The position numbers were made by a program, and so were the translations under genes. Shown here piece after piece: positions 13,299-41,133 of a DNA stretch of 64,000 bases (position 1 is its first letter; every line of letters starts with the position of its first letter). A model generated the notes under the pieces. That model ran no database searches. It was not told where the DNA came from and saw only the letters and a program-made list of their open reading frames with translations. The stretch covers positions 62,001 to 126,000 of the forward strand of contig NZ_FQYQ01000004.1 in the NCBI RefSeq assembly GCF_900141825.1, read 5' to 3'. The stretch is from Pseudobutyrivibrio xylanivorans DSM 14809 (GTDB lineage: Bacteria > Bacillota > Clostridia > Lachnospirales > Lachnospiraceae).

Positions 13299-13324
13299 AC
13301 CAAGGGTTGGTAGAGGATATTGGG

Positions 13325-24781: not shown

Positions 24782-26257
24782 ATGAATGTACTGATAACAG
24801 GAGGAACAGGAACAATTAGTTCTGGACTTGTGAGAGAATCTGTACGAAGAGGCTTTAATACTTATGCAATAACGAGGGGAAATCATTCTCATAAAAACAT
24901 AGAAGGCGCTACATATATTACAGGTAATGTATGGGATAGAGATAGCTATTTAGATGGAATAAAGAATATACATTTTGATGTAGTTGTTGAATGTTTGGTA
25001 TTTAATCCACTCCAGTTAGAGTATTCTTTGGCATCATTCTGTGACATATGTGATCAATATATTTTTATATCGACAGCAGTTTTGGAAATTCCATCGGATA
25101 ATAGTACGGTTTCCGAAGATTCCGCTCTAGACTATGGTGGACGAGAGTATGTGCGTAATAAAATTGCCTGCGAGGAATTATTGGCTACTTATTTTAAAAA
25201 GAAAAAGGAGAAATATACAATCGTACGTCCTTTTTTTACCTATGGTGCCTATCACATTAGGTATGGAGTAGATAGCTCTTATGATGAATATGCAAATATA
25301 TATAGAATTAAAAGCAAAAAACCGCTGATATGTTTTAAAACTTATAAGGTTCCCTTTGTAAATATTGAGGATTTTTCTAGAGGAGTGGTTTCTTTATTCA
25401 AAAATTCTTTAGCGTACGGAGAAGTTTTTCATATTGCAGAACAGGGAAAAGAAACCACATGGGAGGAAGTATATAAACTTGTGGCTAAGTCATTAGATAC
25501 AGATGCATATGTAATTCATTTACCAAAATTATTATTCCAAATGTTTGTACCTAGAAGGTATGAGGCGATTATAGGAGAAAGAGGAAGAAATTATTCTGTA
25601 ATTGATAATAAATTAAAAAAGGCAGTGCCAGGTTTTAGTCAGTTAATAAGTAATGAAATAGGAATTGCCAACACTGTAGGAAAAATAGTTGATGAATATA
25701 AGGCTAATGAATTACCTAGAGACGAGGAGTATCAGCTAGGCATAGAAGATGCGATTATTCACGCATATAACAGACAATTGATAACACAAGAAGAAAAGGA
25801 AATGGTGGAAAAATATTTTGAGAAAACTGATTCTTTTTTAGATGAAAAGAATGTAAAAAGGACAAAAAGTAAGTTACAAGAATTTTATGATGTTCTTATA
25901 AAATGGATTGGGCTTAAACAAAAGAAACAAGAGATAGGAGAATTTTTAAAACATAATGGATTTGATACTGTAGCGATATATGGAATGAAAGAACTTGGTA
26001 AGACACTTTACAATGATTTAAAGCTATGTGGAATGACGATACCTTATTGTATAGATGCTAGAGTAGATGATGTTTGTAAAGACGTAGCAACGACAGTTAT
26101 TACACCTGATGAATATTCAGATGCCTGTGATGTGGACGTTGTAATAGTGACAGCTATTCATTACTATGAGGATATTTTTTTACAATTGTGGAAGAAAAAA
26201 AAAGATATACCTATTTTGTCATTAGAATTCATAATTGATGAAATGCTAATGAGGTAA
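24782..26257 (+). CDS. NAD-dependent epimerase/dehydratase with C-terminal Rossmann-like module
   Basis: 491 residues. About 1-300 form a short-chain nucleotide-sugar epimerase/dehydratase (VLITGGTGTISSG nucleotide loop; RPFFTYGAYH region). The classical Tyr-x3-Lys seems to be in YVRNKIACEE. A helical linker (about 300-395) leads to a second Rossmann-like module (TVAIYGMKELGKTLYNDL ... VVIVTAIHYYEDI) that recurs in six neighbours. The first domain would alter a sugar nucleotide; the second may bind a nucleotide or NAD. GAGGGTAAACT precedes the ATG. Confidence 0.8.
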   Translation: MNVLITGGTGTISSGLVRESVRRGFNTYAITRGNHSHKNIEGATYITGNVWDRDSYLDGIKNIHFDVVVECLVFNPLQLEYSLASFCDICDQYIFISTAVLEIPSDNSTVSEDSALDYGGREYVRNKIACEELLATYFKKKKEKYTIVRPFFTYGAYHIRYGVDSSYDEYANIYRIKSKKPLICFKTYKVPFVNIEDFSRGVVSLFKNSLAYGEVFHIAEQGKETTWEEVYKLVAKSLDTDAYVIHLPKLLFQMFVPRRYEAIIGERGRNYSVIDNKLKKAVPGFSQLISNEIGIANTVGKIVDEYKANELPRDEEYQLGIEDAIIHAYNRQLITQEEKEMVEKYFEKTDSFLDEKNVKRTKSKLQEFYDVLIKWIGLKQKKQEIGEFLKHNGFDTVAIYGMKELGKTLYNDLKLCGMTIPYCIDARVDDVCKDVATTVITPDEYSDACDVDVVIVTAIHYYEDIFLQLWKKKKDIPILSLEFIIDEMLMR

Positions 26258-26312
26258 CTTACCATTGAAACAAATACTAGACAAGATGTTTGTTTAATAA
26301 AGAGGAATGACA

Positions 26313-27875
26313 ATGGATAAAAGTTTGATTATGTATAGAAATTTTACATACTTATATATTTCAAAAGAAGAACTAATTAAAACTTTTGATTTGCTAGGTA
26401 TGTCTAAAATTTATATTTATGGTTTGGGTGAATTTGGAAAGATACTTATATCTTGTCTTAAGGATGAGAAAATCATAGAAGGTTTATCTGACAGAAAAAT
26501 AGAAAGTACAGGTACAGCTATAGACGATGTATTAGGAACAGTAAAAGTTTATAGACCAGAGGAAATACCAAATGATGGGAATCCTATAATAGTTACTGTT
26601 TCAAAGGAATATTCTGTTATTAGAGATGGTTTAGTAAAAAAGGGGATAGAATTAAAAAGAATTATTTCATTAAATTTAATTTTAAGGTATGCGGTTTATT
26701 TTACAAAAGAAAAAGAATGTTTTAATCCAGCAAAATTAAAAGAATACCTTATTGTTGGGGCTAACTTTAAAAACAAAGGATCACAGGCGATGGCATTTGT
26801 GACCATGAATGAAATTAGGAGAAATGATAAAAATGCAATAATATGGTGTTGTCCTAATATTAGTGATCAGATATATTCTAAAAATGATTACAGAATGATA
26901 TTTTTAGAAGATGGATTTACGAATGAAGCCTCTGTGAATGAAATTATTCCTAGGTTGACAGCAATTATCGACGTAAGTGGGTATGCAATATCATCTAGAG
27001 ATGGTTTTGGGAAAACTGAGAGGGTAATGAATTTTTTGAAGATGGCTTATGAATATAATGTGCCCTTTTTTTTAATGCCGCAATCGTTTGGACCATTAGA
27101 TTATCCTAAATATAAGCTTGCTGAGATGGAAGCCTTATTAAAAAGTTGTAAAAAAATTTTTGCTAGAGAAGAGCAAGGCTATAATCTGTTGAGGAGTCTT
27201 TTTGATTTAGATAATTTAGAGTTGTCTAATGATATGGTTTTACAAAGTAAAATAATAGATGAGAATAATATTTATTTTAACAATCATAGTGAAAATGTAA
27301 TTCGAATAGAAAATGATAATAGTGTTGGAATTATCCCAAATAGAAATCTTTTATTGTATTTGAGTGAAGAAAAATGTATTGAATTATATATTCAAATAAT
27401 AGATGGATTACTAAAAGAAAATATAGATGTTTATATTGTTCCACATAGCGATGATAATGTTATATGTGACAAGATTTATGAAAACTATAATCAGAATAAA
27501 AAAGTACTTTACATTAAAGAGAAATTCGATTGTTTAGAGTTTGAGAAGATAATAAAACAGTTTAGGTTTATTGTTGCTTCAAGATATCACTCTATAGTTC
27601 ATGCATTTAAGGTTGGTATTCCATGTATCATAATAGGTTGGGCAGATAAATATAATGAACTTGCAAAACTTATGGATCAGGAATGCTTTTTAACTGATGT
27701 TCGAAATGTTATTGATGTAAATGCTATACCTAATCAATTAGAGGAAATAAAAGACAATAATGTACAGATAAGAAAAAAAATAGAGCAAAAAATAGAAGAA
27801 TTGCAAGAAGAATCTTGTTTTCAAGTGGTATGGAAAGAACTATTGGATAATGAGAAAAAGGGTTACTATTTATGA
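26313..27875 (+). CDS. Polysaccharide pyruvyl transferase with N-terminal Rossmann-like module
   Basis: 520 residues. Residues about 20-130 are the shared module (KIYIYGLGEFGKILISCLK ... IPNDGNPIIVTVSKEYSVI). Residues about 140-480 are the PS_pyruv_trans family (GANFKNKGSQAMAFVTMNE, MPQSFGPLDYP, VASRYHSIVHAFKVGIPCI), which transfers pyruvate from phosphoenolpyruvate to sugars as a ketal, giving acidic glycans. The ATG at 26313 is taken, since GAGGA is then at a normal distance; an ATG two codons earlier touches the ribosome site. The 3' end overlaps the next start (ATGA). Confidence 0.88.
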   Translation: MDKSLIMYRNFTYLYISKEELIKTFDLLGMSKIYIYGLGEFGKILISCLKDEKIIEGLSDRKIESTGTAIDDVLGTVKVYRPEEIPNDGNPIIVTVSKEYSVIRDGLVKKGIELKRIISLNLILRYAVYFTKEKECFNPAKLKEYLIVGANFKNKGSQAMAFVTMNEIRRNDKNAIIWCCPNISDQIYSKNDYRMIFLEDGFTNEASVNEIIPRLTAIIDVSGYAISSRDGFGKTERVMNFLKMAYEYNVPFFLMPQSFGPLDYPKYKLAEMEALLKSCKKIFAREEQGYNLLRSLFDLDNLELSNDMVLQSKIIDENNIYFNNHSENVIRIENDNSVGIIPNRNLLLYLSEEKCIELYIQIIDGLLKENIDVYIVPHSDDNVICDKIYENYNQNKKVLYIKEKFDCLEFEKIIKQFRFIVASRYHSIVHAFKVGIPCIIIGWADKYNELAKLMDQECFLTDVRNVIDVNAIPNQLEEIKDNNVQIRKKIEQKIEELQEESCFQVVWKELLDNEKKGYYL

Positions 27876-29218
27876 AACTAAGTGTAATAATCCCAATTTA
27901 CAATTCGGAAAAGCATATTGACAGGTGTTTGCAAAGTGTTGCGCGCCAGAATTTAGATGATATGGAAATTATATGTGTAGATGATGGCTCAACAGATAAT
28001 TCCTATAACATCCTTTTGTGGTACCAGCAACATAATCCAAAGATAAAAGTATATAGACAATCTAGAAAGTATGCTGGTTCAGCTAGAAATTTGGGATTGA
28101 GTAAAGCATCTGGGGAGTATATACACTTTTTGGATTCAGATGACTATTTATATGACAATGTATATTCTCAGATATATATGCAAGCAGCGGAAAATAAATT
28201 GGACTACCTTAAATTCAGATGTTTTTGTTTTATGGCTGGTAGTGGAATACAAAATGAAGATCATTTGGAGTATTCGCTACTCAATGTCCCTGAAAAATAC
28301 TTTGATGGAAGGTTATTAAATGTCGAAGAGGACATAGATTTAATAGTAAAACAATTCTCCCATACACCATGGAGTGGAATATATAGACGGGAATTTTTAG
28401 AAAAAAACAACATTCTATTTAATGAATTGATTTGTGTTAATGACAGGTCATTTTATGCTACCGTGATTGCAAATGCTGAAAAAATTTCATTGAGTAATAT
28501 TGCTGTTGTGAATCATCAAATAGGGCGAGAAACATCGTTAGTTGGAATAAGGGCCAAAAATTTCGAATGTCATTATAAGTCTTTTTACATTATAGAAAAT
28601 GCAATGAAAAATGTTAGCGAAAAAGTTCGAAAGACAATAATTCAAAGTGAATTGCTTGATACCATATATTGGTTTAATAATATGCCTGAATATTTAAAGA
28701 CAAAAGAACAAGATCGCTTTAATGATTTTATAGATAAACTCGATATGAAATACATTGACCAAAATGAGATTACTAACTTAAATCAAAATATATCGAGAGA
28801 AAAGAGGCTTGAATTGATTCGTGAAGATGTATCAGGTGAATGTTATTATCGTTATTCAAAATTAACTTCAGCTGGTAAGCGAATAGAAGATATATTAAAC
28901 AAAGAAGAATTAAAAGAGATATATGTGTACGGTGTGGGGGAAATTGGAAGAATGGTCCTATCTGATTTGAGTTTATCTGGCTCGAGTAGGGTAAAAGGAA
29001 TATTTGATAAAAGGGCTGCGAATGAGAAGATAGTTGTAGAAGGCTATGAAAATGTAGGAATCAAGACTCCAGAAAATATACCAAGAGATAATGTGCCTGT
29101 TGTTATTACCCCATCGAGAAATTATACAGGAATAATACGAGAGCTAGTTGATAACGGAATTGAGCAAAGCAGGATAGTTTTATTTAATGATTTGTTGAAA
29201 ATAGTAGATGAACTATAA
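27872..29218 (+). CDS. Family 2 glycosyltransferase with C-terminal Rossmann-like module
   Basis: 448 residues. The GT-A domain starts at once (KLSVIIPIYNSEKHIDRCL; CVDDGSTDNS; the metal-binding FLDSDD). The middle is helical. About 345-448 is the shared module (EIYVYGVGEIGRMVLSDL ... VPVVITPSRNYTGIIREL). The enzyme should add a sugar from a nucleotide donor on the inner face of the membrane; donor and acceptor are unknown. No membrane segment. It is coupled to the pyruvyl transferase by a 4-bp overlap and is the last gene before the ADP-ribosylation module. Confidence 0.9.
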   Translation: MKLSVIIPIYNSEKHIDRCLQSVARQNLDDMEIICVDDGSTDNSYNILLWYQQHNPKIKVYRQSRKYAGSARNLGLSKASGEYIHFLDSDDYLYDNVYSQIYMQAAENKLDYLKFRCFCFMAGSGIQNEDHLEYSLLNVPEKYFDGRLLNVEEDIDLIVKQFSHTPWSGIYRREFLEKNNILFNELICVNDRSFYATVIANAEKISLSNIAVVNHQIGRETSLVGIRAKNFECHYKSFYIIENAMKNVSEKVRKTIIQSELLDTIYWFNNMPEYLKTKEQDRFNDFIDKLDMKYIDQNEITNLNQNISREKRLELIREDVSGECYYRYSKLTSAGKRIEDILNKEELKEIYVYGVGEIGRMVLSDLSLSGSSRVKGIFDKRAANEKIVVEGYENVGIKTPENIPRDNVPVVITPSRNYTGIIRELVDNGIEQSRIVLFNDLLKIVDEL

Positions 29219-29303
29219 AGCGAGATGAATATATAAATGCATACATAATGGAAAAAAATTGTAGTATACGATATTATATGTTAAAAGACAAAGGAAGAAT
29301 ATT

Positions 29304-29951
29304 ATGGATAAAATTGTTCTTTATCATGGTTCATTAACTAAAACATTTACTCCAAGGTACGGACTAGGAGAGGAAAAACATGATTACGGAAAAGGATTCT
29401 ATTTAACTGAGAATGATGATTTGGCTCAAGAATGGGCTGTTTGCCGACCAGACGTAAAAAATGGATACGTACATCAATATGAATTAGATTTAGATGGACT
29501 TAAAGTATTAGATTTTCAAAAAGAAGATGTTTTAGCCTGGTTGGCAGAGCTGATGAAACATAGAGATGCAGATGATTCAAAACGATATCGTGTGTTAGCT
29601 ACAAAATTTATTGAAAAATATGGTATTGATACATCAGGGTATGATGTTATTAAAGGGTGGAGAGCTGATGCTTCATATTTCTATATAGCTAAGGAGTTTG
29701 TCAGAGACAACAAAGACATTAGAATTTTAAAAGATTTACTGTCGCTAGGAGGATTAGGAATACAATATTGTATAAAAAGTGAAAAGGCTTATTCTCAGCT
29801 GAAAGAAATAGAAAATGGGCTACGTATTGTTGATTATGAAGTTTTTAATGAAAAATACAACAGTAGGGATGCAGAAGCTAGAAAGAAAATGAGAGAATTA
29901 GTTGATTCTGATGCAAATGAAGTTGAAAAAGTGTTTAGTACATTACTATAA
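29304..29951 (+). CDS. DUF3990 protein, ADP-ribosyltransferase-like
   Basis: 215 residues. The start (IVLYHGSLTKTFTPRYG, then HDYGKGFYLTENDDLAQEWA) matches the DUF3990 family, which has an ADP-ribosyltransferase-like fold: the YHGS strand corresponds to the NAD-binding start and GKGFYLT to the second motif. YDVIKGWRAD follows in the middle. A toxin role is inferred because the third gene of this small operon encodes a NADAR protein, and NADAR enzymes reverse guanine ADP-ribosylation in DarT1/DarG1-type systems. AAGGAAG precedes the ATG. The 85-bp spacer upstream is very AT-rich and may hold the promoter. Confidence 0.78.
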   Translation: MDKIVLYHGSLTKTFTPRYGLGEEKHDYGKGFYLTENDDLAQEWAVCRPDVKNGYVHQYELDLDGLKVLDFQKEDVLAWLAELMKHRDADDSKRYRVLATKFIEKYGIDTSGYDVIKGWRADASYFYIAKEFVRDNKDIRILKDLLSLGGLGIQYCIKSEKAYSQLKEIENGLRIVDYEVFNEKYNSRDAEARKKMRELVDSDANEVEKVFSTLL

Positions 29952-29963
29952 GAGGAATGTTTT

Positions 29964-30380
29964 ATGCAGGCATATTCTAAGGACTACTTGAATGATGTAG
30001 TGGAGAATCAGGGAAAGTTATTTGATTACATAGCCCAGTATTATCCAGATAAAGATACAAAGGATTTTATTAATTCATATATGAAAAGTAAGACACGAAA
30101 GAGTGTGGATAAAGGTCAGGCTTATGTTATGACCATGGATACCAACTATTTGTGGGATTATTTCATTAAAACTGATAAATATAAATTAAAAGAGGGAAAA
30201 TCTTTAGAGGGATTTGTTCCAGATTGGATAGGTGAATTTTATGCTTATTATCAATGGTATTATAATATGCCAAGTTCTGAGGTTATAAAAAAAGTACCTA
30301 TCGATTTTTTATGTAAAGCATACCATGGGCTTCATGACCTTGAATTAGATCTCGCAGTGAAAAAAGTGGGGATGCAATGA
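29964..30380 (+). CDS. Small unknown protein between DUF3990 and NADAR genes
   Basis: 138 residues, mostly helical and rich in aromatic residues (DWIGEFYAYYQWYYNMPSS, then KAYHGLHDLELDLAVKKVG). I do not recognise the family with certainty; the end resembles small partners commonly encoded with DUF3990 proteins. No signal peptide or membrane segment. It starts 12 bp after the DUF3990 stop with AAGAGGAATG as ribosome site, and its stop overlaps the NADAR start. It is likely an antitoxin subunit or adaptor. Confidence 0.6.
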   Translation: MQAYSKDYLNDVVENQGKLFDYIAQYYPDKDTKDFINSYMKSKTRKSVDKGQAYVMTMDTNYLWDYFIKTDKYKLKEGKSLEGFVPDWIGEFYAYYQWYYNMPSSEVIKKVPIDFLCKAYHGLHDLELDLAVKKVGMQ

Positions 30381-30862
30381 TGAATATCATTACCTTTCAT
30401 AATCCTGATGAAGAGAATGGATACTTAAGTAATTGGTATCTATCAGAGTTTTTTATTGATAATAAAAAGTTTTCTTCAATGGAACAATATATGATGTATA
30501 TGAAAGCTAAATGTTTTGCAGATGAAGAGATAGCTGAAAGGATAATGTCAACTACAGATGTTGCTGAGATAAAAAGTTTGGGTAGATTGGTAAAAGGCTA
30601 TAATGAAAATATCTGGAATGGGATGAGACAAGTTATTGTGTATGAGGGGCTTTTAGCTAAATTTTCACAAAACAAAGAGCTAAGAGAAAGGCTTATAGCA
30701 ACAGGGAATGATATTATAGCAGAATGTGCGGTCAAGGATACAGTTTGGGGTATAGGAGTATCTATGAAAGATGACCGAAAGACCGATATAACTGCATGGA
30801 GAGGCAATAATTTGTTGGGATACGCGCTAATGTGTGTTAGAAAAAAAATAGCAATGTTGTGA
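30377..30862 (+). CDS. NADAR (YbiA-like) family protein
   Basis: 161 residues of the NADAR family: GYLSNWYLSEFFIDNKKFSS near the start, then SMEQYMMYMKA, and near the end VWGIGVS and AWRGNNLLGYALM. NADAR proteins act on ADP-ribose-linked substrates; some remove ADP-ribose from guanine and serve as antitoxins to DarT1-like toxins, others (YbiA/RibX) act on riboflavin intermediates. Placement directly after an ART-like gene favours the first. The ATG overlaps the previous TGA; a second ATG follows at once. A hairpin terminator at 30911 closes the module. Confidence 0.85.
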   Translation: MMNIITFHNPDEENGYLSNWYLSEFFIDNKKFSSMEQYMMYMKAKCFADEEIAERIMSTTDVAEIKSLGRLVKGYNENIWNGMRQVIVYEGLLAKFSQNKELRERLIATGNDIIAECAVKDTVWGIGVSMKDDRKTDITAWRGNNLLGYALMCVRKKIAML

Positions 30863-30910
30863 CAATTATAATAAGCAGTCGATGGGGAGTAAAAAGGTAA
30901 TATTGTTTTG

Positions 30911-30950
30911 AAAAGCGCTTCGCATCGTTATGATGGGAGGCGCTTTTATT
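30911..30950. terminator. Terminator after the NADAR gene
   Basis: AAAAGCGC and GCGCTTTT around a loop of about 21 bases; the A and T flanks make it work in both directions. Confidence 0.7.
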
Positions 30951-30966
30951 ACATTGGGGATTATAT

Positions 30967-32256
30967 ATGAATAACTCTTTAGTAAGTGTTGTAATGCCTG
31001 TTTATAATACAGGGGTATTATTGAAGGAGAGTATAGGAAGTTTATTAAATCAAACCTATACAAATATAGAGTTGTTATGTGTTGATGATGCATCGAATGA
31101 TACGTTGACAAAAGAAATTCTTGCAGAATATTTAAATGCAGACGCAAGGGTAAAGCTAATTGTGCTTGAGAAAAATATAGGCGCTGGTGGAGCTAGAAAT
31201 ATAGGGTTAGAAGCTGCAGAAGGAAAATATATTTTATTTTTTGATTCAGATGATTACGCATTTCCATCTATGCTAGAAAAGCTGATTAATCAGTGTGAGA
31301 AAAATGAATTGGATTTGTGTATTTGTAGTGCTGTTGTGTGTGATGTTGAATCTAAAGGTTATATTACATCAATCATTCATAAAGAAGAAAGGGGAACTAC
31401 TGACGGTTATTTTTCTGTAAAAAATTTGAGCGAAGATGCTTTGCTGCATTGGAACACAGCACCTTGGAATAAGCTCTTCAGATTAGATTTTGTGAAAGAA
31501 ATATCATGCCACTTTCAAGAGATAGCATCATGTAATGATGTCTATTTTACAATAATGTGCGCTATGAAAGCCACTCGTATTATGTATTGCGAAAATGGAA
31601 ATCCATTAGTTGAGTATCGGAAAGGTAGAAGCAATCAGATATCCAGAAACAAGAAAATATCTGATCTATTTTTAGCGTTTGACAAGTTGTTTCAGGATTT
31701 GAAAGATGTATCAAATGAGGAAAAGAACCAATTAGTAACAGCTCTAATTTATTTATCGATTGCTGAATTAATGGCGAGCAAAGATATACAAGAAAAGAAA
31801 AAATTATACGGATTTGTCAGTGATTTTATTAGAAATCAAGTTAGAGTTGAAGGTATTAAGAGTGAAAAAACGAAAGAAATCTGCATATCATTTAGAGATG
31901 AGAAATTTGAGAGTGGATGGTTTGAAAAAAATAATAATGATGAGATAGATATTCATAGTGTTCTTAAGCAGTTGATAGACCAGAATGCGATAATAATTTG
32001 GGGGTATGGCCATAACGGAGTAATTCTAGATAGAAAAATACATGAAATGGAATGCTCAAAAAAAATATATGTGACTGATAAAAAAGATATTATGCTCGGA
32101 AGAAAGACACAGTATGAATCGACAATTATTGAAACAAAAAGTGCACTGGAAATGGATGCCGCATTAATAGCTACAAATAAAGAAATATATGAATATTTGA
32201 GTGAAATACTTAAGGACAACACAAAAAAGATATTGATTAAAGGTTGGATTGGCTAA
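30967..32256 (+). CDS. Family 2 glycosyltransferase with C-terminal Rossmann-like module
   Basis: 429 residues. GT-A domain: SVVMPVYNTGVLLKESIGSL, CVDDASNDT, and the metal site FFDSDD. Residues about 340-429 are a degenerate copy of the shared module (IIIWGYGHNGVILDRKIHE ... AALIATNKEIYEYLSEI). It restarts the glycan locus 20 bp after the terminator of the ADP-ribosylation module, with a weak ribosome site (GGGGATTATAT). Donor and acceptor are unknown. It differs clearly from the GT2 at 27872, so it is not a recent duplicate. Confidence 0.88.
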   Translation: MNNSLVSVVMPVYNTGVLLKESIGSLLNQTYTNIELLCVDDASNDTLTKEILAEYLNADARVKLIVLEKNIGAGGARNIGLEAAEGKYILFFDSDDYAFPSMLEKLINQCEKNELDLCICSAVVCDVESKGYITSIIHKEERGTTDGYFSVKNLSEDALLHWNTAPWNKLFRLDFVKEISCHFQEIASCNDVYFTIMCAMKATRIMYCENGNPLVEYRKGRSNQISRNKKISDLFLAFDKLFQDLKDVSNEEKNQLVTALIYLSIAELMASKDIQEKKKLYGFVSDFIRNQVRVEGIKSEKTKEICISFRDEKFESGWFEKNNNDEIDIHSVLKQLIDQNAIIIWGYGHNGVILDRKIHEMECSKKIYVTDKKDIMLGRKTQYESTIIETKSALEMDAALIATNKEIYEYLSEILKDNTKKILIKGWIG

Positions 32257-32267
32257 GGGGAGTCGAT

Positions 32268-33179
32268 ATGGAGAAGATATTATTTGGAGCAGGTGAGGTT
32301 GGAAGAGAGCTACTAAGAAATGGAACTATTAGTCCTGTAGCATATTTCTGTGACAATAAGAAAAGTGGCGAAGTTATTGATGGAGTAGAAGTTATTTCGT
32401 TTGAGCAACTCAAGAAGATTCATTTCAATTATGAGGTTATTATAGCCGTTAGGAACAGAAAAGTACGACAGGAGATAAAGGAATTATTAGCTAACAATAA
32501 GATTGGCTATAGAGAACTTGATGAGCTTGACGAAGTGAAGTATGCAGGGGAATTAGGCTATTGGGAAGATGTATACAATAGAGAAAACCACAGTTTCAAA
32601 AACGAGTTTTACAAGAGACTAATGTTAGGTATAGCAGAAGAGAAGAACGATAGATTTCTGTCTGAAAAAGTCGTATGCGATTTTGGTTGTGGGCCTAGGG
32701 GAAGCTTAACTTGGATGAAAAGTCCAGCTGTGAAAATTGGAGTGGATGTGCTGGTGCCAAAGTATTTTGAGCATTTTGGTGAGACAATGATAAATCATGA
32801 GATGATTTATGTTACGTCTACAGAAAAATATATTCCTTTGCCAGATGAATTTGTAGATTGTTTATTAACTATAAATTCATTGGACCATGTGAGAAATCTG
32901 GAAATAATATCTTCGGAGTTAAATCGAATACTCAAAAAGGGTGGACGACTACTGGCTAGTTTTAATTTATTTGAACCAGTGACAGAATGCGAACCACAGA
33001 CTTTGACAGAAGAAATTATAAATGAGGTATTATTAAAAAATTTTGAAATAGAAACATATAGAATTGCTGAAAGAGATGAAAAAGAGACATACAAAAATTT
33101 AATAGACAAAAATTTGCTCGAAAAAGCCAATAAAGATTGTCCGTGTATTTTGTGGGTCAGTGCCGTAAAAAAGGATTAG
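32268..33179 (+). CDS. SAM-dependent methyltransferase with N-terminal Rossmann-like module
   Basis: 303 residues. About 1-95 is the shared module (KILFGAGEVGRELLRNG; YEVIIAVRNRKVRQEI). About 135-300 is a class I methyltransferase: VVCDFGCGPRGSL is the SAM-binding glycine loop, VDCLLTINSLDHVRN motif II, and LKKGGRLLASFN motif III. It would methylate a sugar or terminal group of the glycan. The ATG at 32268 follows AAGGGGAG; a TTG in the same frame at 32244 lies inside the preceding gene. It starts 11 bp after that gene's stop. Confidence 0.85.
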   Translation: MEKILFGAGEVGRELLRNGTISPVAYFCDNKKSGEVIDGVEVISFEQLKKIHFNYEVIIAVRNRKVRQEIKELLANNKIGYRELDELDEVKYAGELGYWEDVYNRENHSFKNEFYKRLMLGIAEEKNDRFLSEKVVCDFGCGPRGSLTWMKSPAVKIGVDVLVPKYFEHFGETMINHEMIYVTSTEKYIPLPDEFVDCLLTINSLDHVRNLEIISSELNRILKKGGRLLASFNLFEPVTECEPQTLTEEIINEVLLKNFEIETYRIAERDEKETYKNLIDKNLLEKANKDCPCILWVSAVKKD

Positions 33180-33189
33180 GAGAATATCT

Positions 33190-34428
33190 ATGCGGGTTCT
33201 TTGGATTTGTAATATTGTTGTACCGGAATATTCACATGTGTTTAACATCAAAAAAAATAATGTAGCAGGTTGGATTTCTGGACAGTTAAAGGCATTATTG
33301 GATAGTGATTTAAGGGTTGAGATTGGCCTTGTGTTTCCAATTTATGATGTTGAACGAAGAAAAGACACACAGAGTGATGATGTGCAAATATTTTCTATTG
33401 ATGGAAACATGAATCATCTTGATAGGAATGATAAATATATAAACCAATTTATTGATATTTATGAAAAGTTTAGACCAGACATAATACAAATTTGGGGGAC
33501 AGAGTATAAACACGCCTTTTACGCTACTATGGCAGCAAATAAGATTGGATTATTAAGTAAAGTTGTGGTTCATATCCAAGGTATAGTGACATGTTATTCG
33601 AGTCATTTTTTTGATGGTGTACATTATGAGTGGAGAAAACAAATAATGGAACACTACGAAAGATTTATAGAACAAGGTTCTTTAGAAGAGCAGACTTTGA
33701 AGCTTGTTCAGAATGTGCTTGGAAGAACTGAGTGGGATAGAGGTACTACGAAATTATTCAATGATTCGGTTAATTATTTGTACTGTCCTGAAATATTAAG
33801 AGATGCATTCTACGAAAATGCAGGGAGATGGAATTATAGTGAATGTCAAAAACATTCTATTTTTATAAGTAGTGCTGCATATTCTATAAAAGGATTTCAC
33901 TCATTCGTAGAAGTAATAGAGATAGTGAGAAAAAAGTATCCAGATATAAAAGTTACAATAGCTGGAAGAAACCCTATAGAAGCAAATAGCGAAGGGGAGA
34001 TAAGTGGCTACGGAAAGTATATTAGTCATCTTATTGATGAAAAAGGAATAGCTGATAGTTTACAGTTTACAGGAATGCTTACTGAAGAGGAAATGATAAA
34101 CCATATGCTTATGGCAAATGTTTTTGTGGTGCCTTCTCTTGTAGAAAATTCTTGTAATTCTTTATGTGAAGCTATGATGCTTGGCGTTCCTATTGTGGCT
34201 ACTTATACAGGCGGTACTCCAAGTATGGTTGACCATGGTGTAACAGGTCTTTTGTATCAGGGTAATGCGGGGTATATGGGCGCGTATTACATAAGGGAAT
34301 TATTTGAAGACCAGGAATTAGTGATGACGTTATCAAAAAATGGAGTACAAACAGCATTGAGAAGGCATGATAGGAAAACGGTAACGGAAGGATTATTGGA
34401 AATATACAAGAATTTGGTTTATGTGTAG
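33190..34428 (+). CDS. Family 4 glycosyltransferase (GT-B)
   Basis: 412 residues with two Rossmann-like halves. The C-terminal half has the retaining GT4 signature: FTGMLTEEEMINHMLMANVF, then VVPSLVENSCNSLCEAM and GVPIVATYTGGTPSMV, with the Glu pair that holds the donor nucleotide. The N-terminal half opens with RVLWICNIVVPEYSHVF. It lacks the extra module of its neighbours. It starts 10 bp after the methyltransferase gene. The sugar transferred is unknown. Confidence 0.9.
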   Translation: MRVLWICNIVVPEYSHVFNIKKNNVAGWISGQLKALLDSDLRVEIGLVFPIYDVERRKDTQSDDVQIFSIDGNMNHLDRNDKYINQFIDIYEKFRPDIIQIWGTEYKHAFYATMAANKIGLLSKVVVHIQGIVTCYSSHFFDGVHYEWRKQIMEHYERFIEQGSLEEQTLKLVQNVLGRTEWDRGTTKLFNDSVNYLYCPEILRDAFYENAGRWNYSECQKHSIFISSAAYSIKGFHSFVEVIEIVRKKYPDIKVTIAGRNPIEANSEGEISGYGKYISHLIDEKGIADSLQFTGMLTEEEMINHMLMANVFVVPSLVENSCNSLCEAMMLGVPIVATYTGGTPSMVDHGVTGLLYQGNAGYMGAYYIRELFEDQELVMTLSKNGVQTALRRHDRKTVTEGLLEIYKNLVYV

Positions 34429-34470
34429 TGCTTCCATAGTGGTAGAAGCATTTGGATAAGGAAAAGATAA

Positions 34471-35664
34471 ATGAAACCTAAAGTATCAATTATCATACCC
34501 GTATATAATGGCTCCAATTATTTGCAGCAGGCAATTGACAGTGCCCTGGCTCAAACATACGAAAACATAGAAATCGTTGTAGTAAATGATGGCTCTGATG
34601 ATAATAAGGCTACCAGAGAAGTGGCATTGAGGTATGGTGATAGAATTAGGTATTTTGAAAAAGAAAATGGCGGTACATCATCAGCATTAAATTATGGAAT
34701 TCAAAGAATGACAGGGGAGTACTTTGCCTGGCTTTCGCACGATGACGTCTATTTACCAGAAAGAATAAAAAGGCATATGGATGCTATTTTGGAATCTGGA
34801 GATAAATTAGCTCCTGTATACAGTAAATACGTGAGATGGATTGATAGTAAGGAATTGTATGCGCCAAATCAAAGTTACAATTATGATATTAAATTATACC
34901 AGTCAGGACTAACCGCAGTAGTGCTAGGATTGATAGATGGTTTGTCACTAACCTTTCATAAAAGTTATTTTGATGAAAATGGACTCTTTGACGAATCGTT
35001 GCGAACAACACAGGATTACATGAAGTGGTTTGAGATGTTTCATGGTAAGAGGATGATTTATTTAGATGAGCATCTTGCGAAAAATCGTGTTCATGAGGAG
35101 CAACAAGGCAGGCGTATTTCTACTGTTTGGGAGAAAGAATCAGATAAGCTTTATAGCAGGGTGATGGGGGAGTTCAGAGATGAAGATTTAGCGGCATCAG
35201 GAATGGATTTATATACATTCTTGGGACTAGCAGTGCTTCGATTTGAAAGTCTTGGACGATATGGAGCTGCAAAAATTGCTGAAACAAGATTGCTTAATGT
35301 GGAGGTATCAGATGGACAAGAGCAGCGTAAGAAGCTACAAGAAGTAATAAAACCACAAAGAGAGACAATTACTTTGTATTGTATCGGTAAGAGGGGGCGT
35401 GCTCTTCTAAAGGGATTATATTTACGAGGTATTAAGGTGGATTATATTTCTGATAAGTCTTCGCAGCTGGATTACACAAATACGTATGGTGCTACTGTAA
35501 TTAGACCAGAAGATATTCCCTATGATTCTAAAGTAATAATTACGAAGGATAGACCAGATGAAATAGTTGATGAATTTATTCAAAAAGGATATAGGAATGT
35601 GTCTACATATGATGAGATAATAAACAGTGTAATGATGACTCCTATAGATAAATGCAAGTTGTAA
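34471..35664 (+). CDS. Family 2 glycosyltransferase with C-terminal Rossmann-like module
   Basis: 397 residues. GT-A domain: KVSIIIPVYNGSNYLQQAI, VVVNDGSDDN, and AWLSHDD at the metal site (HDD, in place of SDD). LRTTQDYMKWFEM marks the acceptor helix. About 290-390 is the shared module (TITLYCIGKRGRALLKGL ... SKVIITKDRPDEIVDEFI). A weak TGCTTC/GAAGCA hairpin (34429-34450) lies in the 42-bp spacer before it. Base composition is less AT-rich than in the genes before 33 kb. Confidence 0.9.
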   Translation: MKPKVSIIIPVYNGSNYLQQAIDSALAQTYENIEIVVVNDGSDDNKATREVALRYGDRIRYFEKENGGTSSALNYGIQRMTGEYFAWLSHDDVYLPERIKRHMDAILESGDKLAPVYSKYVRWIDSKELYAPNQSYNYDIKLYQSGLTAVVLGLIDGLSLTFHKSYFDENGLFDESLRTTQDYMKWFEMFHGKRMIYLDEHLAKNRVHEEQQGRRISTVWEKESDKLYSRVMGEFRDEDLAASGMDLYTFLGLAVLRFESLGRYGAAKIAETRLLNVEVSDGQEQRKKLQEVIKPQRETITLYCIGKRGRALLKGLYLRGIKVDYISDKSSQLDYTNTYGATVIRPEDIPYDSKVIITKDRPDEIVDEFIQKGYRNVSTYDEIINSVMMTPIDKCKL

Positions 35665-35681
35665 AAATTGGGGGAAATTAG

Positions 35682-36686
35682 ATGAATCAACCAATAGATA
35701 TTGTTATTCCCTGGGTAGATGAAAAGGATATAAAATGGCAGCATGAAAAGCAGAAGTATGAGAGCCCTAAGGATTTTGAGGCTTCAAATATGCGTTTTCA
35801 AAGCTGGGATAATTTACAGTTATGGTTCAGGGCTATCGAGGAGTGTATGCCTTGGATTAATGATATCTATTTGATTACCTGCGGTCAGATTCCTGAATTT
35901 TTAGATGAGAATAATCCAAAATTAAAAATAGTATTTCATACTGATTTCATTCCAAAAGAATACCTTCCAACATTTAATTCCAACACTATAGAGATGAACA
36001 TTCATCGAATACCGTCACTATCAGAGAACTTTATTTTATTCAGTGATGATGTTTTTCCTTTGAAGAAAATCGAGGAAGAGTATTATTTTAAAAATAACAT
36101 GGTATGCGATGAGGCTGTAGAAAATATAATCACCACATCTTCATTTGGAGCAGTTTCTAGAAATACACGCTATGCGCAGGTAAACAACATGTTTATCATA
36201 AATAAATATTTCAAGAAACGAGAGGTGCAGGAAAAGAACAGGGATAAATGGTATTGTGAGGATTACGGTGATAGGCTAGAGCGAACAAAGGCCTGTGCTT
36301 ATTGGTACGATTTCCCAGGTTTTTATGATCCTCATATGGCAAATGCAATGAAGAAATCTACACTGTCTAAATTATGGGAGCTAGAACCAGAAGCATTGGA
36401 TGCAGGTTCACGTGATAGATTCAGGGGACATGCAGATGTGACACAGTATCTAATTCGTTACTGGCAAATCTGTTCAGGAGAGTTTGTTCCAAGACGTACA
36501 CAAGGAAAGGTGTTTTTTCCTACGATTGATACATATCATGAGGTTGTCGAGGCGATAGATAATCATCTATATACTATGATAAGTTTTAACGAAAATTGTA
36601 CACCAGAGGAGTTTGAGAGAATGAAGGCTGCAATCAATGGAGCGCTGGAAAGAAGATATCCAAATAAGTGCAGGTTTGAACGATGA
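35682..36686 (+). CDS. Stealth-family sugar phosphotransferase
   Basis: 334 residues. All conserved Stealth blocks are visible: CR1 (IDIVIPWVDEKD), CR2 (FQSWDNLQLWFRAIEECMPW, then INDIYLITCGQIPEFL, LPTFNSNTIEMNIHRIPSLS and ILFSDDVFPLK), and later HADVTQYLIRYWQ. Stealth enzymes transfer sugar 1-phosphates, forming phosphodiester-linked polymers such as capsules and exopolysaccharides. The presence here implies phosphodiester links in the glycan. GGGGGAAATTAG precedes the ATG. The stop overlaps the next start. Confidence 0.93.
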   Translation: MNQPIDIVIPWVDEKDIKWQHEKQKYESPKDFEASNMRFQSWDNLQLWFRAIEECMPWINDIYLITCGQIPEFLDENNPKLKIVFHTDFIPKEYLPTFNSNTIEMNIHRIPSLSENFILFSDDVFPLKKIEEEYYFKNNMVCDEAVENIITTSSFGAVSRNTRYAQVNNMFIINKYFKKREVQEKNRDKWYCEDYGDRLERTKACAYWYDFPGFYDPHMANAMKKSTLSKLWELEPEALDAGSRDRFRGHADVTQYLIRYWQICSGEFVPRRTQGKVFFPTIDTYHEVVEAIDNHLYTMISFNENCTPEEFERMKAAINGALERRYPNKCRFER

Positions 36687-38707
36687 TGGAATGGATTACT
36701 TCAGATAAAATTGCATTATATGGTCTAGGCACAGAAACTGAAAGGCTCATTTCCCAGTGGGGAGGTGGGCCTAAAATTATTGGATTGTTAGATGGGTTTA
36801 GAGAAGAAGGGGAGCTTTATGGCTATCCAATTATTTCACTGCAGCAGGCGGTGGATGCAGGAGTGCAGCAGATACTTGTTGTGGCTAGGCCAGGGTCTTG
36901 TAAAGTTATTGCCAAGAGGATAGGAGAAGTCTGTCGTGAAAACGGGATTTCTGTTTATGATGTCCGTGGCAATGATTTATTAGAAGAGAAAGAAGCTAAA
37001 TTTGATTTTAGTGGGATTAACGTATATACGAAGCAGAGTCTGCTAGCTGCTATTGATGATGTGGATGTAGTAAGTTTTGATTTGTTTGACACACTTATTG
37101 TGAGAAAAGTGTTGTATTACACTGATGTTTTTCAACTGGTGGAATCCAGATTGAAAGCTAACGGTATAGTCATAGATGATTTTGCGTCAAAACGAATTGC
37201 TGCTGAAAAAGAGCTTTCTGTGGGAGCTGCGCCAAAGCTTTCAGATATTTATGAAAGGTTGTTGGCTGAGGAGTCTGTCAAAGAAATAACGGATGGTGAA
37301 TTGGCAGAATTGGAATGGGAAATAGATTCATCATTATTTATTCCTAGAGACGGCATGTTAGAAGTAATTAAGTACGCCAAGGATAGTGGGAAAAAGGTAG
37401 TAGTCACAACAGACTGCTATTACGCCAAGTCACAGCTTGTGGAGATGCTTAGAAGATTTGACTTGGATGTCTTTGATGAAATCTTTGTATCTTCAGAATA
37501 TGGAAAATCAAAGGCAGATGGTCTGTTTGGCGTTGTAAAAGACCAATTTACAGGCAAAAGAATTCTCCATATCGGTGATGATGAATATGTGGATGTGGAG
37601 AAAGCTGCAGAAGCAGGAGTGGACGATTATCGTATATACGGTGCAAAGGATTTGTATGACGCAGTAGGTTGTTTAGGACTGGATGGCTGTGGAGACAGTT
37701 TTGCTGATAAAGTGAAAATTGGCTTGTTGCTCTCGAAATTATTTAATAATCCATTTTTATTTGAGGAAGAAGATAAAAGAATCAAAATAGAAGATGCTAA
37801 GAATATTGGGTATTTTATCTGTGGACCTATGATTTTAGATTTCGCTTTTTGGTTCAGAGAAAAGGTTCAGAAAAACGAAATGGTCAATGTATTGCTATGT
37901 GCAAGAGATGGCTATCTGATGGAGAAGATTTTTGAGAGGCTTTCGCTTGATGTGCAGGGGAGGGTTGCATATTTTCTTACATCCAGAACAGCAGCTATTA
38001 GAGCTGGTATAGATAGTCAGGAAGATTTGGACTATGTGGATAGCATGAAATTCTTTGGAACCGATGATGAGAATCTGAAGACCCGCTTTGGGATTAGTAT
38101 TAGGCCTGAGGAAGATAGAGCACAGGCTATTTTAGAGAAGTCTAAAATCCAAAAGGAGAATTATAAGAGATATTTAGTTGGACTTGGATTGTCAAATGGA
38201 AGAACGGCAGTCTTTGATTTTGTTGCCAAGGGAACCACTCAGCTGTTTTTGAAAAAGATTATTTCACAGGAATTATACGGATTGTATTTTCTACAGCTTG
38301 AACCGGAATTTATGGACAACAAGGGCTTGGAAATAGAATCATTTTATACGGAAGCTGAAAGAGATAAGAGTGTAATCTTTGACAATTACTATATTTTGGA
38401 GACAATTCTTACATCACCAATGCCATCAGTTGATGAGTTTGATGAGAATGGAAATCCTGTATATGCGGCTGAGACAAGAAGCTCAGCTAATTTGTCATGC
38501 GTGGAGCTGATGCAGGAAGGAATCCTGGAGTACGTAGAAGATTATCTAAGCATTGTGCCAGAGGAGCAGCGCGTGAGTAATAAGCAGCTAGACGAGGCGT
38601 TGTTGTCATTGGTTGGAAAGCTTGAAATAACAGATAGCAAATTCAAGGAGCTTGTAGTGGAGGATCCATTTTTTGGAAGAATGACGAATATGGTGGATGT
38701 GTTGTAG
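36683..38707 (+). CDS. HAD-superfamily protein with N-terminal Rossmann-like module
   Basis: 674 residues. About 1-105 is the shared module (KIALYGLGTETERLISQW; QILVVARPGSCKVIAKRI). About 125-320 is a HAD hydrolase: VVSFDLFDTLIV (nucleophile Asp), VVVTTDCYYAKSQL, and HIGDDEYVDVEKAAEAG. About 330-674 is an extra domain seen in large HAD proteins of polysaccharide loci (LLCARDGYLMEKIFERL; VFDFVAKGTTQLFLKKI). The reaction is not known; dephosphorylation of a glycan intermediate is an inference. Two ATG codons overlap the Stealth stop, so the pair is coupled. It ends the glycan locus. Confidence 0.82.
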   Translation: MMEWITSDKIALYGLGTETERLISQWGGGPKIIGLLDGFREEGELYGYPIISLQQAVDAGVQQILVVARPGSCKVIAKRIGEVCRENGISVYDVRGNDLLEEKEAKFDFSGINVYTKQSLLAAIDDVDVVSFDLFDTLIVRKVLYYTDVFQLVESRLKANGIVIDDFASKRIAAEKELSVGAAPKLSDIYERLLAEESVKEITDGELAELEWEIDSSLFIPRDGMLEVIKYAKDSGKKVVVTTDCYYAKSQLVEMLRRFDLDVFDEIFVSSEYGKSKADGLFGVVKDQFTGKRILHIGDDEYVDVEKAAEAGVDDYRIYGAKDLYDAVGCLGLDGCGDSFADKVKIGLLLSKLFNNPFLFEEEDKRIKIEDAKNIGYFICGPMILDFAFWFREKVQKNEMVNVLLCARDGYLMEKIFERLSLDVQGRVAYFLTSRTAAIRAGIDSQEDLDYVDSMKFFGTDDENLKTRFGISIRPEEDRAQAILEKSKIQKENYKRYLVGLGLSNGRTAVFDFVAKGTTQLFLKKIISQELYGLYFLQLEPEFMDNKGLEIESFYTEAERDKSVIFDNYYILETILTSPMPSVDEFDENGNPVYAAETRSSANLSCVELMQEGILEYVEDYLSIVPEEQRVSNKQLDEALLSLVGKLEITDSKFKELVVEDPFFGRMTNMVDVL

Positions 38708-38758: not shown

Positions 38759-38772
38759 CAAATTATGGAGGC
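38748..38772. promoter_or_regulatory. Perfect 11-bp palindrome over the -10 box (operator)
   Basis: GCCTCCATAAT-CAA-ATTATGGAGGC. It covers the -10 box, the expected start of transcription and the GGAGG ribosome site of the kinase gene. Binding by the kinase's own N-terminal HTH domain would shut off the operon. Since the left arm lies upstream of the expected start site, a DNA operator is more likely than an mRNA hairpin. Confidence 0.75.
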
Positions 38773-38779
38773 TATCTTT

Positions 38780-39865
38780 ATGTCTAATGAGAGAAATGCA
38801 GGGCGAAAGCCATTAATAAGCGAAGAGCAGATAAATGAAATAGAAGAGCGATACAATGGTGGCGAAAGTCTTAGTGCCATTGCTAAGGAGTATGGTGTTA
38901 CTCGTCAGGCGCTTCATAAGAGATTGCAGGATAAATCCAATAAGCCAGTGAAAATTGACTGGATTGAGGATGGAGAATGTGTATCCTCTATGGAGGTTGA
39001 TTTCAAGAGGAGAGGTATAGTTCTTGCAAATTATGCAGTAGAAATATCAAGGCTTCCATTTGGATTTAATGTCCATCCAACATGGCAAAATTTCATTAGC
39101 TTATTGGAAGAAAAATACTTAAAAGAACACGGTGTTGATGAACCTGGAACATATCTGGTTACAGATGATGGGAAAGGTTTTCAGGTAGATGAAGTGCTGG
39201 ATTTGCCCGAAGATTTCCAAGGAGAAATCCCAGTTTTCGAATTTCAAAAGAAAGACCTTATTCTCACCAGAACAGATACTGACGGCTTCCAGATGAAAGC
39301 TATGTCTTCTGATAGAAGGTTATTTATAAAATCTCAGGCAGTGATTTCAGGAGTGGAAATGCAGGATTGGGCAGTGGAGATAATAGCGTCAGATTTGGCA
39401 GAGCAGTTGGGAATTCCATGTGTTAAACAACATCAGTGTAAATTTGCTTTCGGAAATAGAAAGTGGGAAGGTGTATATTCAAAGAATTTTGAGATTGATG
39501 GGTACACATTTTTGTCATTTGAATCATTGATATCAACAGAGCATCTTTCTACTAAAGATGATGCCTTTATAAGAATGGGTAGTCTGGAAAAACTAGAATG
39601 GTGTGCTAATCAGTTGGCACGAATTGGCGGTATTTCCTGTGCGCAGGCAGAGAAATACATGATAGATTTGGCAGTGATAGATTGCCTGGTTGGAAATGTG
39701 GACAGGCATACAAGAAACTTCGGTTTATTCTTTAATTCAAACAAAGGTGAATACTCGATTCCACTAGTGTTTGATAATGGTATGGGCTTGTTTGAGCATG
39801 ACTATTACAGGGACAATTATAAGAGCTTCGAGGAAGCAATGAACAATGTATATGTTTCGCCATAA
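38780..39865 (+). CDS. HTH-HipA-like kinase fusion, ended early by an in-frame TAA
   Basis: 361 residues as read. About 8-50 are a helix-turn-helix (SLSAIAKEYGVTRQALHKRL). From about 60 the chain resembles HipA/CtkA-type protein kinases: LPFGFNVHPTWQNF, a Lys in FIKSQ, the catalytic loop VGNVDRHTRNFG and the metal-binding VFDNGMG. HipA toxins phosphorylate cytosolic targets such as GltX; normally the DNA-binding antitoxin HipB is separate. The TAA at 39863 interrupts the frame, which then stays open and protein-like to 40027. The ATG at 38780 follows GGAGG; the ATG at 38765 precedes it. A small gene follows and is likely its partner. Confidence 0.75.
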   Translation: MSNERNAGRKPLISEEQINEIEERYNGGESLSAIAKEYGVTRQALHKRLQDKSNKPVKIDWIEDGECVSSMEVDFKRRGIVLANYAVEISRLPFGFNVHPTWQNFISLLEEKYLKEHGVDEPGTYLVTDDGKGFQVDEVLDLPEDFQGEIPVFEFQKKDLILTRTDTDGFQMKAMSSDRRLFIKSQAVISGVEMQDWAVEIIASDLAEQLGIPCVKQHQCKFAFGNRKWEGVYSKNFEIDGYTFLSFESLISTEHLSTKDDAFIRMGSLEKLEWCANQLARIGGISCAQAEKYMIDLAVIDCLVGNVDRHTRNFGLFFNSNKGEYSIPLVFDNGMGLFEHDYYRDNYKSFEEAMNNVYVSP

Positions 39866-40432: not shown

Positions 40433-40720
40433 ATGGCAAGTACATTAATTCAATTTCGTGCCGATGATATGGAAAAGTTAGAAGCAATTAAAATTTGCGA
40501 CAAGCTTGGGATAAATCTACAGGCATATCTAAGAATGTGTTTATCTCGTCTTATTTCGGAAAACGGCATTCCATTTAGTATGAATGTTACAGAGATTGAA
40601 GATAATCAGGCTATACGCACAATGCGAGAAATAAGTAGACGATCTGCTGAAAACGGGCTATCAGAAATGTCTTTAGAAGAGATAAATGCTGAGATACAGG
40701 AGGTACGTCGCAATAAATGA
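40433..40720 (+). CDS. RelB/DinJ-family antitoxin
   Basis: 95 residues. The N-terminal ribbon-helix-helix (STLIQFRADDMEKLEAIKIC, then DKLGINLQAYLRMCLSRLI) matches the RelB/DinJ family, which binds DNA as a dimer and masks the toxin through its C-terminal part. Here the next gene encodes a PIN-domain protein rather than the usual RelE/YafQ, an unusual pairing. AAAGGAG lies 8 bases before the ATG. The stop overlaps the toxin start by 4 bp. Confidence 0.85.
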   Translation: MASTLIQFRADDMEKLEAIKICDKLGINLQAYLRMCLSRLISENGIPFSMNVTEIEDNQAIRTMREISRRSAENGLSEMSLEEINAEIQEVRRNK

Positions 40721-41133
40721 TTAAGTACTATGTTGTTTTAGATACTAATGTTATCGTTTCTGCTTTGTTAAAAGCTCAATCAGTGCCTGGAATTATCCTA
40801 GAATTTGTATATAGAGGGATGATAGTTCCAATATACAATAGTGAAATAATTGAAGAGTATAAAGATGTTTTAACTCGACCCAAATTTAAAATACCAGACG
40901 AGGAAGTAGATATTCTTGTTGGGAGGATAACAGAGTTGGGAATCGAATCTACAAGGAAAACGGTTAATGAATACTTCCCAGATTTTAAGGATGTAGTTTT
41001 CTACGAAGTCACAATGAGCGCCAAGGAGAAATATGATGCTAAATTAGTTACAGGAAATACAAAGCATTTTCCAGAAAAAGAATATGTTTTGACACCAAGA
41101 GAATTTTTGGAATTGATAATTAATAATTCGTAA
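40717..41133 (+). CDS. PIN-domain protein, putative toxin RNase
   Basis: 138 residues of the PIN family annotated as putative toxin-antitoxin component. YYVVLDTNVIVSALL carries the first metal-binding Asp (residue 9), a Glu lies in NSEIIEEYKDVLTRPKF, and later acids lie near AKEKYDAKLVTGNTKHF. The last motif has Asp and Asn where family members often have two acids. Such proteins cleave RNA unless bound by the antitoxin. It is coupled to the RelB-like gene by an ATGA overlap and closed by a terminator. Confidence 0.82.
   Translation: MIKYYVVLDTNVIVSALLKAQSVPGIILEFVYRGMIVPIYNSEIIEEYKDVLTRPKFKIPDEEVDILVGRITELGIESTRKTVNEYFPDFKDVVFYEVTMSAKEKYDAKLVTGNTKHFPEKEYVLTPREFLELIINNS

Follow-up and report, generated by a model that had tools for sequence, protein, structure and literature searches.

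The nearest described relatives of the domain discussed here are the C-terminal NAD(H)-binding domain of Rex (CoA_binding, PF02629), PglD_N (PF17836), which is the N-terminal domain of the NeuD/PglD sugar acetyltransferases, and CoA_binding_3 (PF13727), the 'DUF' of WbaP/CpsE and of the PglF/CapD-like dehydratases. KijD1 and TcaB9 have Rossmann-like C-terminal domains, and the Methyltransf_14 domain (PF08484, the C-methyltransferase C-terminal domain) is presumably a Rossmann-like unit lying C-terminal to a sugar methyltransferase. The closest relative to have been tested is the WbaP domain. In the sections of the WbaP study cited here, the excised domain is stabilised by UMP, UDP and UTP and supplies most of the dimer contacts, while UMP inhibits WbaP with a half-maximal inhibitory concentration of 4.1 uM, possibly also through the active site; the presence of the same domain on WbaP-type transferases and PglF-like dehydratases is there termed puzzling (PMC10942596). 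For EpsZ, the cited part of a second study presents models that put dimer pairing in the related domain, aided by the regulator EpsW (PMC12802240). Here we describe a Rossmann-like module that is used repeatedly in a surface-glycan operon of Pseudobutyrivibrio xylanivorans DSM 14809. The operon occupies positions 24782-38707 (+ strand) of a stretch of 64,000 nucleotides (contig NZ_FQYQ01000004.1, positions 62,001 to 126,000), which was analysed as a whole and is called the window below.

Module copies in the glycan operon

The operon encodes an epimerase, a pyruvyl transferase, three GT2 glycosyltransferases, a GT4 glycosyltransferase, a methyltransferase, a Stealth protein and a HAD protein. 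A first-pass annotation made from the sequence had placed module copies at the C-terminal end of the epimerase (EPI) and of the three GT2 enzymes (GTa, GTb and GTc), and at the N-terminal end of the pyruvyl transferase (PVT), the methyltransferase (MT) and the HAD protein (HAD), and that is where we find them. Our test profile consisted of 51 copies from other genomes of the genus and held no window sequences, having been gathered from window seeds, so that it is free of the window sequences but not of their seed. Among the 237 open reading frames (ORFs) of the window it put exactly these seven proteins on top, with expectation values (E) of 6e-16 for PVT, 2e-15 for EPI, 1e-13 for GTa, 3e-13 for GTc, 2e-11 for MT, 2e-9 for HAD and 6e-4 for GTb; the next ORF stood at 0.11. 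The pattern and the positions first proposed were right, and the profiles support a single homologous module that one cluster has put to use on several unrelated catalysts. The description of the hosts as seven different glycan enzymes is correct as to seven proteins but not as to kinds, of which there are only five because GT2 occurs three times. The features, all on the + strand, are as follows.

24782-26257 (+): EPI, SDR-type NAD-dependent epimerase with a C-terminal module (PF01370, E 9e-13, residues 3-218)
25943-26245 (+): module copy of EPI, 'QWL' subtype, whose helical prefix EFYDVLIKWIGLKQ begins near 25880 (profile searches)
26307-27875 (+), alternative start 26313: PVT, polysaccharide pyruvyl transferase with an N-terminal module (PF04230, E 1.6e-23, residues 156-445)
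26388-26684 (+): module copy of PVT (single-sequence and profile searches)
27872-29218 (+): GTa, GT2 glycosyltransferase with a C-terminal module (PF00535, E 2.3e-31)
28895-29200 (+): module copy of GTa (profile searches; AlphaFold2 model of 28826-29215)
29304-30862 (+): insert of three genes without modules (DUF3990, a 138-amino-acid ORF, NADAR), outside the module system
30967-32256 (+): GTb, GT2 glycosyltransferase with a probable, degenerate C-terminal module (PF00535, E 2.8e-35)
31978-32232 (+): probable module copy of GTb, the most diverged and least certain of the seven (profile without window sequences, E 6e-4)
32268-33179 (+), a TTG start at 32244 being also open: MT, S-adenosylmethionine (SAM) methyltransferase with an N-terminal module (PF08241, E 7e-8)
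32268-32537 (+): module copy of MT (profile searches)
33190-34428 (+): GT4 glycosyltransferase of the same operon, no module match in profile searches (PF00534, E 2e-26)
34471-35664 (+): GTc, GT2 glycosyltransferase with a C-terminal module (PF00535, E 4.4e-30)
35350-35628 (+): module copy of GTc (single-sequence and profile searches)
35682-36686 (+): Stealth-family protein of the same operon, no module match in profile searches (PF11380, E 1.8e-37)
36683-38707 (+): HAD-family protein with an N-terminal module (PF00702, E 3.4e-8)
36698-36967 (+): module copy of HAD (profile searches)

In single-sequence searches the clear pairs are confined to GTa-PVT (E 9e-14) and GTa-GTc (2e-4). EPI-GTc (6e-3) and MT-GTa (0.06) lie in a range where unrelated window ORFs reach 0.004 and 0.019, and the HAD and GTb copies found no sibling among the window ORFs by this method. 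An alignment of four copies (A2) led to relatives in 23 of the 29 genomes of the genus, the source genome counted. Searched with the 51-copy profile, the best of 4,977 shuffled or reversed decoys reached 9e-4 on the window scale (0.02 for 4,977 sequences), and GTb scored 14.2 bits against 13.6 for that decoy. With the near orthologue of the HAD copy taken out of the profile, HAD stood at 1.8e-5, GTb at 2e-4 and the best decoy at 2.4e-3, GTb now having 15.7 bits against 12.3. A 46-copy profile, again without window sequences, gave 12 matches at E <= 0.01 in the source genome (3.42 Mb). The five strong ones (E <= 2e-9) are PVT, EPI, GTa, GTc and MT, at 3.8e-15 to 1.9e-9, and all fall inside this operon; HAD and GTb are absent from the 12. 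The other seven, at 4.7e-6 or worse, comprise ketol-acid reductoisomerase (KARI), Rex and two TrkA proteins (these four were scanned), a 654-amino-acid frame on contig C24 with a match to CoA_binding_3, and two frames with a match to PglD_N (C24:5431 and C18:1660), so that in this genome the module is not equally common on unrelated proteins elsewhere. A profile that includes the window copies (A3) brought all seven to 2.2e-10 or better, the next match in the genome being at 2.2e-6.

Judged by these scores, six module copies are firm and the GTb copy is probable; the label 'degenerate', which it had been given from the outset, suits it. Our final checks weakened the case for GTb and for a genome-wide count of seven out of seven, and left the odds of the mechanisms considered below unchanged. 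The observation as a whole is confirmed, and its earlier interpretation is partly supported.

A good structural model was obtained for one of the seven copies, that of GTa: AlphaFold2 predicted for 28826-29215 a compact Rossmann-like domain with pLDDT 93 and pTM 0.86. The full-length model of GTb (pLDDT 50.3) was too poor for the fold to be judged. The strand-2 aspartate is retained in all seven window copies and the full GxGxxG loop in four, PVT, GTa, MT and GTb.

Spread, partners and neighbouring genes

Counts in 150 family genomes and 199 phylum genomes, in host regions and in regions around standalone copies, of module density and of nearest neighbours sharing a locus, were made with profile A3; the 51-copy ranking, the decoy and near-orthologue tests and the 46-copy genome search were the tests free of window sequences. 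At 1e-5, 135 of 150 family genomes have a match, the weak ones including Rex; at 1e-10 the table count is 42 of 150, with Rex the best match in four. In a phylum sample 20 of 199 genomes match at 1e-10, among them the source genome and one other of the family. Some of the phylum matches are again clusters and several are solitary frames of about 220 amino acids.

In 62 regions we found 219 host ORFs with 220 modules, 106 of them N-terminal, 86 C-terminal, 8 internal and 20 in ORFs shorter than 200 amino acids. One 566-amino-acid GT2 host (L087:13032-14729) has two modules in tandem. Pfam was run on 188 of the 219 hosts and identified at least 41 GT2, 20 radical SAM, 14 GT4 (Glycos_transf_1) and 11 FkbM partners; at least 7 GT9, 6 WbsX, 6 GT8, 4 LicD and 4 RgpF; at least 3 each of DUF4422, Gly_transf_sug, Caps_synth, TylF, MptE-like and HAD; and single instances, GT-D and TupA among them. 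Radical SAM, unexpected in a glycan locus, is the second commonest named partner among the families listed for the hosts of these regions (L067-L128). Twenty hosts, mostly from regions with few matches and picked from the listed rows at E <= 3.6e-10, were scanned one by one: 6 were Rex, 1 a PglD-type acetyltransferase, 1 a C-methyltransferase with a PF08484 domain, 2 TylF, 2 FkbM, 1 LicD, 1 a hexapeptide acyltransferase and 2 radical SAM, and 4 had no named partner. Among these 20, Rex is the one kind that lies clearly outside the chemistry of glycan or small-molecule transfer.

We express density as the share of ORFs of at least 120 amino acids that carry a module, counted from the first to the last module ORF. 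The window has 7 of 12, the five loci selected through the HAD protein (L067-L071) together have 27 of 41, and the 20 regions selected through a standalone copy (L160-L179) have 109 of 168, these last two sets being less biased than the 20 regions picked for density itself (L072-L091; 126 of 214); the overall range is 58-66%. Locus L070 has eight consecutive module genes, encoding a Gly_transf_sug protein, three GT2, a GT8, an FkbM, a GT4 and a relative of the window HAD protein that has 46% identity to it and no Pfam family. Five relatives of the HAD protein were found in all, at 46-93% identity, and every one retains the module; the nearest named records belong to Pseudobutyrivibrio and other Lachnospiraceae (93 to 46% identity).

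Before modules were compared with one another and their conserved columns counted, seven proteins (six Rex, one PglD) were removed. A partner of 150 amino acids or more was present for 196 modules, and for 183 of them the closest other module lay at E < 1e-6. In 75 of the 183 pairs the partners belonged to different classes as defined by BLAST; BLAST at 1e-3 could miss distant kin, so the classes were merged by hidden Markov models (HMMs) of the clusters, and the count was still 75 of 183. N- and C-terminal modules mix in 27 of these 75 pairs. Nearest neighbours share a locus in 15 of 220 cases, 3 of them with a different partner, where 2.2% (about 5) would be expected, and duplication within a locus was rejected as the source of the modules. 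When pairs without a BLAST match were scored 0, modules of one locus on unrelated partners gave 12.19 bits against 11.96 for modules of different loci, a value as high as which was reached in 168 of 500 label permutations; with merged classes the values were 12.03 and 11.93 bits (201 of 500). Neither class scheme thus reveals excess similarity within a locus. These sequence relationships indicate that the module is shuffled between unrelated catalysts without a locus-specific code. The first-pass annotation had suggested a shared ligand, scaffold or docking function for an assembly line: as a docking code private to the operon this is unsupported, because modules of the same locus are no more alike, and a common ligand or a common surface fits better.

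The genes in and around the operon offer some further observations. The insert at 29304-30862 interrupts the glycan operon with DUF3990 (E 9e-37), a 138-amino-acid ORF and NADAR (E 2e-48). The DUF3990 and NADAR families are both tied to ADP-ribose chemistry, and the insert may be a small defence or toxin-antitoxin cassette. Just before the operon, at 20273-23686, a 1137-amino-acid ORF is an unusual fusion of FrhB_FdhB_C, a CBS-like stretch (23.3 bits against a cut-off of 24), a citrate lyase ligase C-terminal domain and a hexapeptide acyltransferase-like end. Further upstream are a weak glycerophosphotransferase-like match under its cut-off (10564-11925, PF04464) and a zinc alcohol dehydrogenase (13307-14380), which perhaps belong to the same surface-polymer locus. 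Downstream of the operon are a HipA_C kinase-like protein with a resolvase-type helix-turn-helix, HTH_7 (38765-39865), and a PIN_3 protein (40717-41133); both look like genes of the toxin-antitoxin type.

Proposed nucleotide sensing and possible membrane docking

With moderate confidence, we read the module as a nucleotide-sensing and pairing accessory domain of pathway enzymes, a reading that follows from the WbaP domain, its closest tested relative, which does both. It would be a mobile, non-catalytic Rossmann-like domain pasted onto most enzymes of a surface-glycan operon, and its pocket, made of the GxGxxG loop and the strand-2 aspartate, would bind a nucleotide common to the pathway, probably a uridine nucleotide or a nucleoside diphosphate sugar and less likely NAD(H). 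Binding would be linked to whether modules pair and to how active the attached enzyme is, with the result that many unrelated enzymes could answer one signal. For this locus we infer ligand, pairing and regulation; nucleotide binding and dimerisation are published for a homologue, and the present analysis shows homology, the predicted fold of one copy, spread, shuffling and conserved pocket residues. In 220 aligned copies the least variable of the columns listed are the first loop glycine (G1, 94%), the strand-2 aspartate (84%) and the second glycine (G2, 83%); G1, G2 and an acid are all kept in 147 of the 220, and among the columns listed no conserved polar residue elsewhere hints at catalysis. 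The idea of a shared ligand, part of the original interpretation, fits the conserved glycines and aspartate and the uridine-nucleotide binding of the WbaP homologue.

The main rival to the nucleotide sensor is docking, in which modules would pair with one another and membrane-anchored standalone modules would tether soluble enzymes beside the lipid-linked glycan, forming a membrane-bound assembly line. We regard this as a possible account, held tentatively, and sensing and docking can both be true. In its favour are standalone copies of the QWL subtype. This subtype, marked by the prefix 'F..YY..L.QWL..K..G..L..YF...GY', is carried by WbsX proteins (which made up 7 of 10 queried), by the window epimerase and by other enzymes, and it also stands alone; among genomes drawn from the phylum, 4 of 299 have it at 1e-12. 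Among 37 unique standalone proteins of this type (110-259 amino acids), 21 have a 17-residue stretch with hydropathy >= 1.6 in their first 30 residues, a property shared by 1 of 187 fused hosts and by 6% of shuffles; this stricter test is the one quoted because a looser one (>= 1.3, first 55 residues), passed by 28 of the 37, is passed by 29% of shuffles too. In 26 of those 28 the flanking lysine and arginine charges predict a cytosolic module. Many standalone copies are thus likely, from their sequences, to have a membrane anchor. Moreover, 18 of the 20 regions (18 genomes) chosen through a standalone copy contain further module ORFs, modules are carried by 58-66% of the ORFs counted, with as many as eight such genes in a row, and the window epimerase shares both the subtype of the standalone copies and their helical prefix. 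Against docking, 16 of the 37 fail the stricter test, QWL-type modules occur in 40 of the 299 genomes of the family searched (1e-10), and in the source genome the QWL-type profile finds the epimerase only and no standalone copy. In addition, conservation is highest in the nucleotide loop and not at a visible interface, and modules of one locus show no similarity of their own. Docking through a general pairing surface is made plausible by the standalone copies with a likely membrane anchor. There is a second kind of standalone protein, of about 120 amino acids with no obvious membrane helix (L125:5032-5394 and L086:3465-3818), in which DYIGTIEQD stands shortly ahead of the module; the two are 48% identical.

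A module that bound NAD(H) as Rex does could tie glycan synthesis to the redox state of the cell. We consider this unlikely, given that the same kinds of residue are found in PglD_N and CoA_binding_3 and that most named partners are glycosyl- or methyltransferases, whose shared currency is not NAD; yet at least 20 of the 188 scanned hosts are radical SAM proteins. A little more doubtful again is that the module is purely structural, a folded remnant that keeps enzymes stable or soluble and plays no part in binding a ligand or partner. The great divergence of the copies (mean column identity 24%) and the loss of pocket residues from some of them would agree with such a remnant, but the pocket residues are the best-kept columns of all, and the module has been fused repeatedly to many folds and exists as a protein by itself. 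That a generic Rossmann motif was met seven times by chance, with no common origin, is highly improbable: HAD and GTb, lacking siblings in single-sequence searches and missed genome-wide by the window-free profile, and the matches of our profiles to Rex, PglD, KARI and TrkA would allow it, but the seven claimed ORFs head the ranking of 237, the five strong genome-wide matches lie in the operon, and the window-free profile and the decoys led us to reject chance for six copies, for which it is hard to hold, GTb being ahead of the best decoy narrowly.

A nucleotide sensor that also pairs bears on how cytosolic surface-glycan enzymes stay together and in step. More speculatively than either sensing or docking by itself, we suggest as a possibility a general plug-in system, in which one module on most pathway enzymes, together with dedicated membrane-anchored standalone copies, would gather glycosyl-, pyruvyl-, methyl- and radical-SAM enzymes of unrelated kinds at the membrane and switch them in concert by one nucleotide signal. 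Many short modules are available on which to ask what nucleotide is sensed and whether pairing occurs. Annotators could also name a domain that goes uncalled by Pfam in the window proteins; PglD_N was matched at E <= 1e-5 on 3 of 100 hosts scanned.

Comparison with known Rossmann families

On the module regions of the seven proteins no Pfam family passes its cut-off; PglD_N (16.6 bits) and CoA_binding (14.1 bits), both in MT, come nearest. Among the NCBIfam matches listed, those of MT, GTa and PVT to Rex or NeuD are weak, and EPI has one at the level of chance. When 54 copies (7 from the window) were scanned alone, 19 matched PglD_N at E <= 0.1, the best at 1e-8, and others matched 2-Hacid_dh_C, CoA_binding, C2185-like_N and Methyltransf_14. 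The module is remotely homologous to the domain with which Rex senses NAD(H), to PglD_N and to CoA_binding_3, the WbaP domain. We found no description of it in our searches of open-access papers.

Each known family resembles the module in part. The Rex domain is likewise a Rossmann domain with GxGxxG and an aspartate, but the window copies fall under its Pfam cut-off and none of the seven proteins has a line for the DNA-binding domain PF06971, which is present in the six Rex proteins also caught by the module profile. C2185-like_N (PF22674; structure 2g6t) has the fold predicted for the module, but none of the window copies reaches its 27-bit cut-off and MT alone has a line (13.4 bits). Methyltransf_14 is matched by 4 of the 54 copies at E <= 0.1 and is above its cut-off on a radical SAM host in L104; it gives no line for the window proteins, however, and the module sits on many kinds of catalyst. 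PglD_N is homologous by profile alignment (hhalign 98.2%, E 6e-14), and the copies of some relatives exceed its 23.4-bit cut-off (28.1 bits in L087, 30.0 bits in L098), but every window copy is under it, and the window partners are by Pfam not hexapeptide acetyltransferases but GT2, PS_pyruv_trans, epimerase, methyltransferase and HAD. CoA_binding_3 aligns over 67 columns (hhalign 96.0%, E 4e-9), yet the seven window proteins have no PF13727 line up to E 1, nor a four-helix membrane bundle, no 19-residue window in them having a hydropathy of 1.6 or more. Whereas CoA_binding_3 belongs to WbaP/CpsE and PglF/CapD-like proteins, the module is joined to many enzyme folds at either end, occurs many times per operon and also stands alone. 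The superfamily is known; its plug-in use on most enzymes of a glycan operon and on likely membrane anchors appears to be new, as judged from the open-access papers searched.

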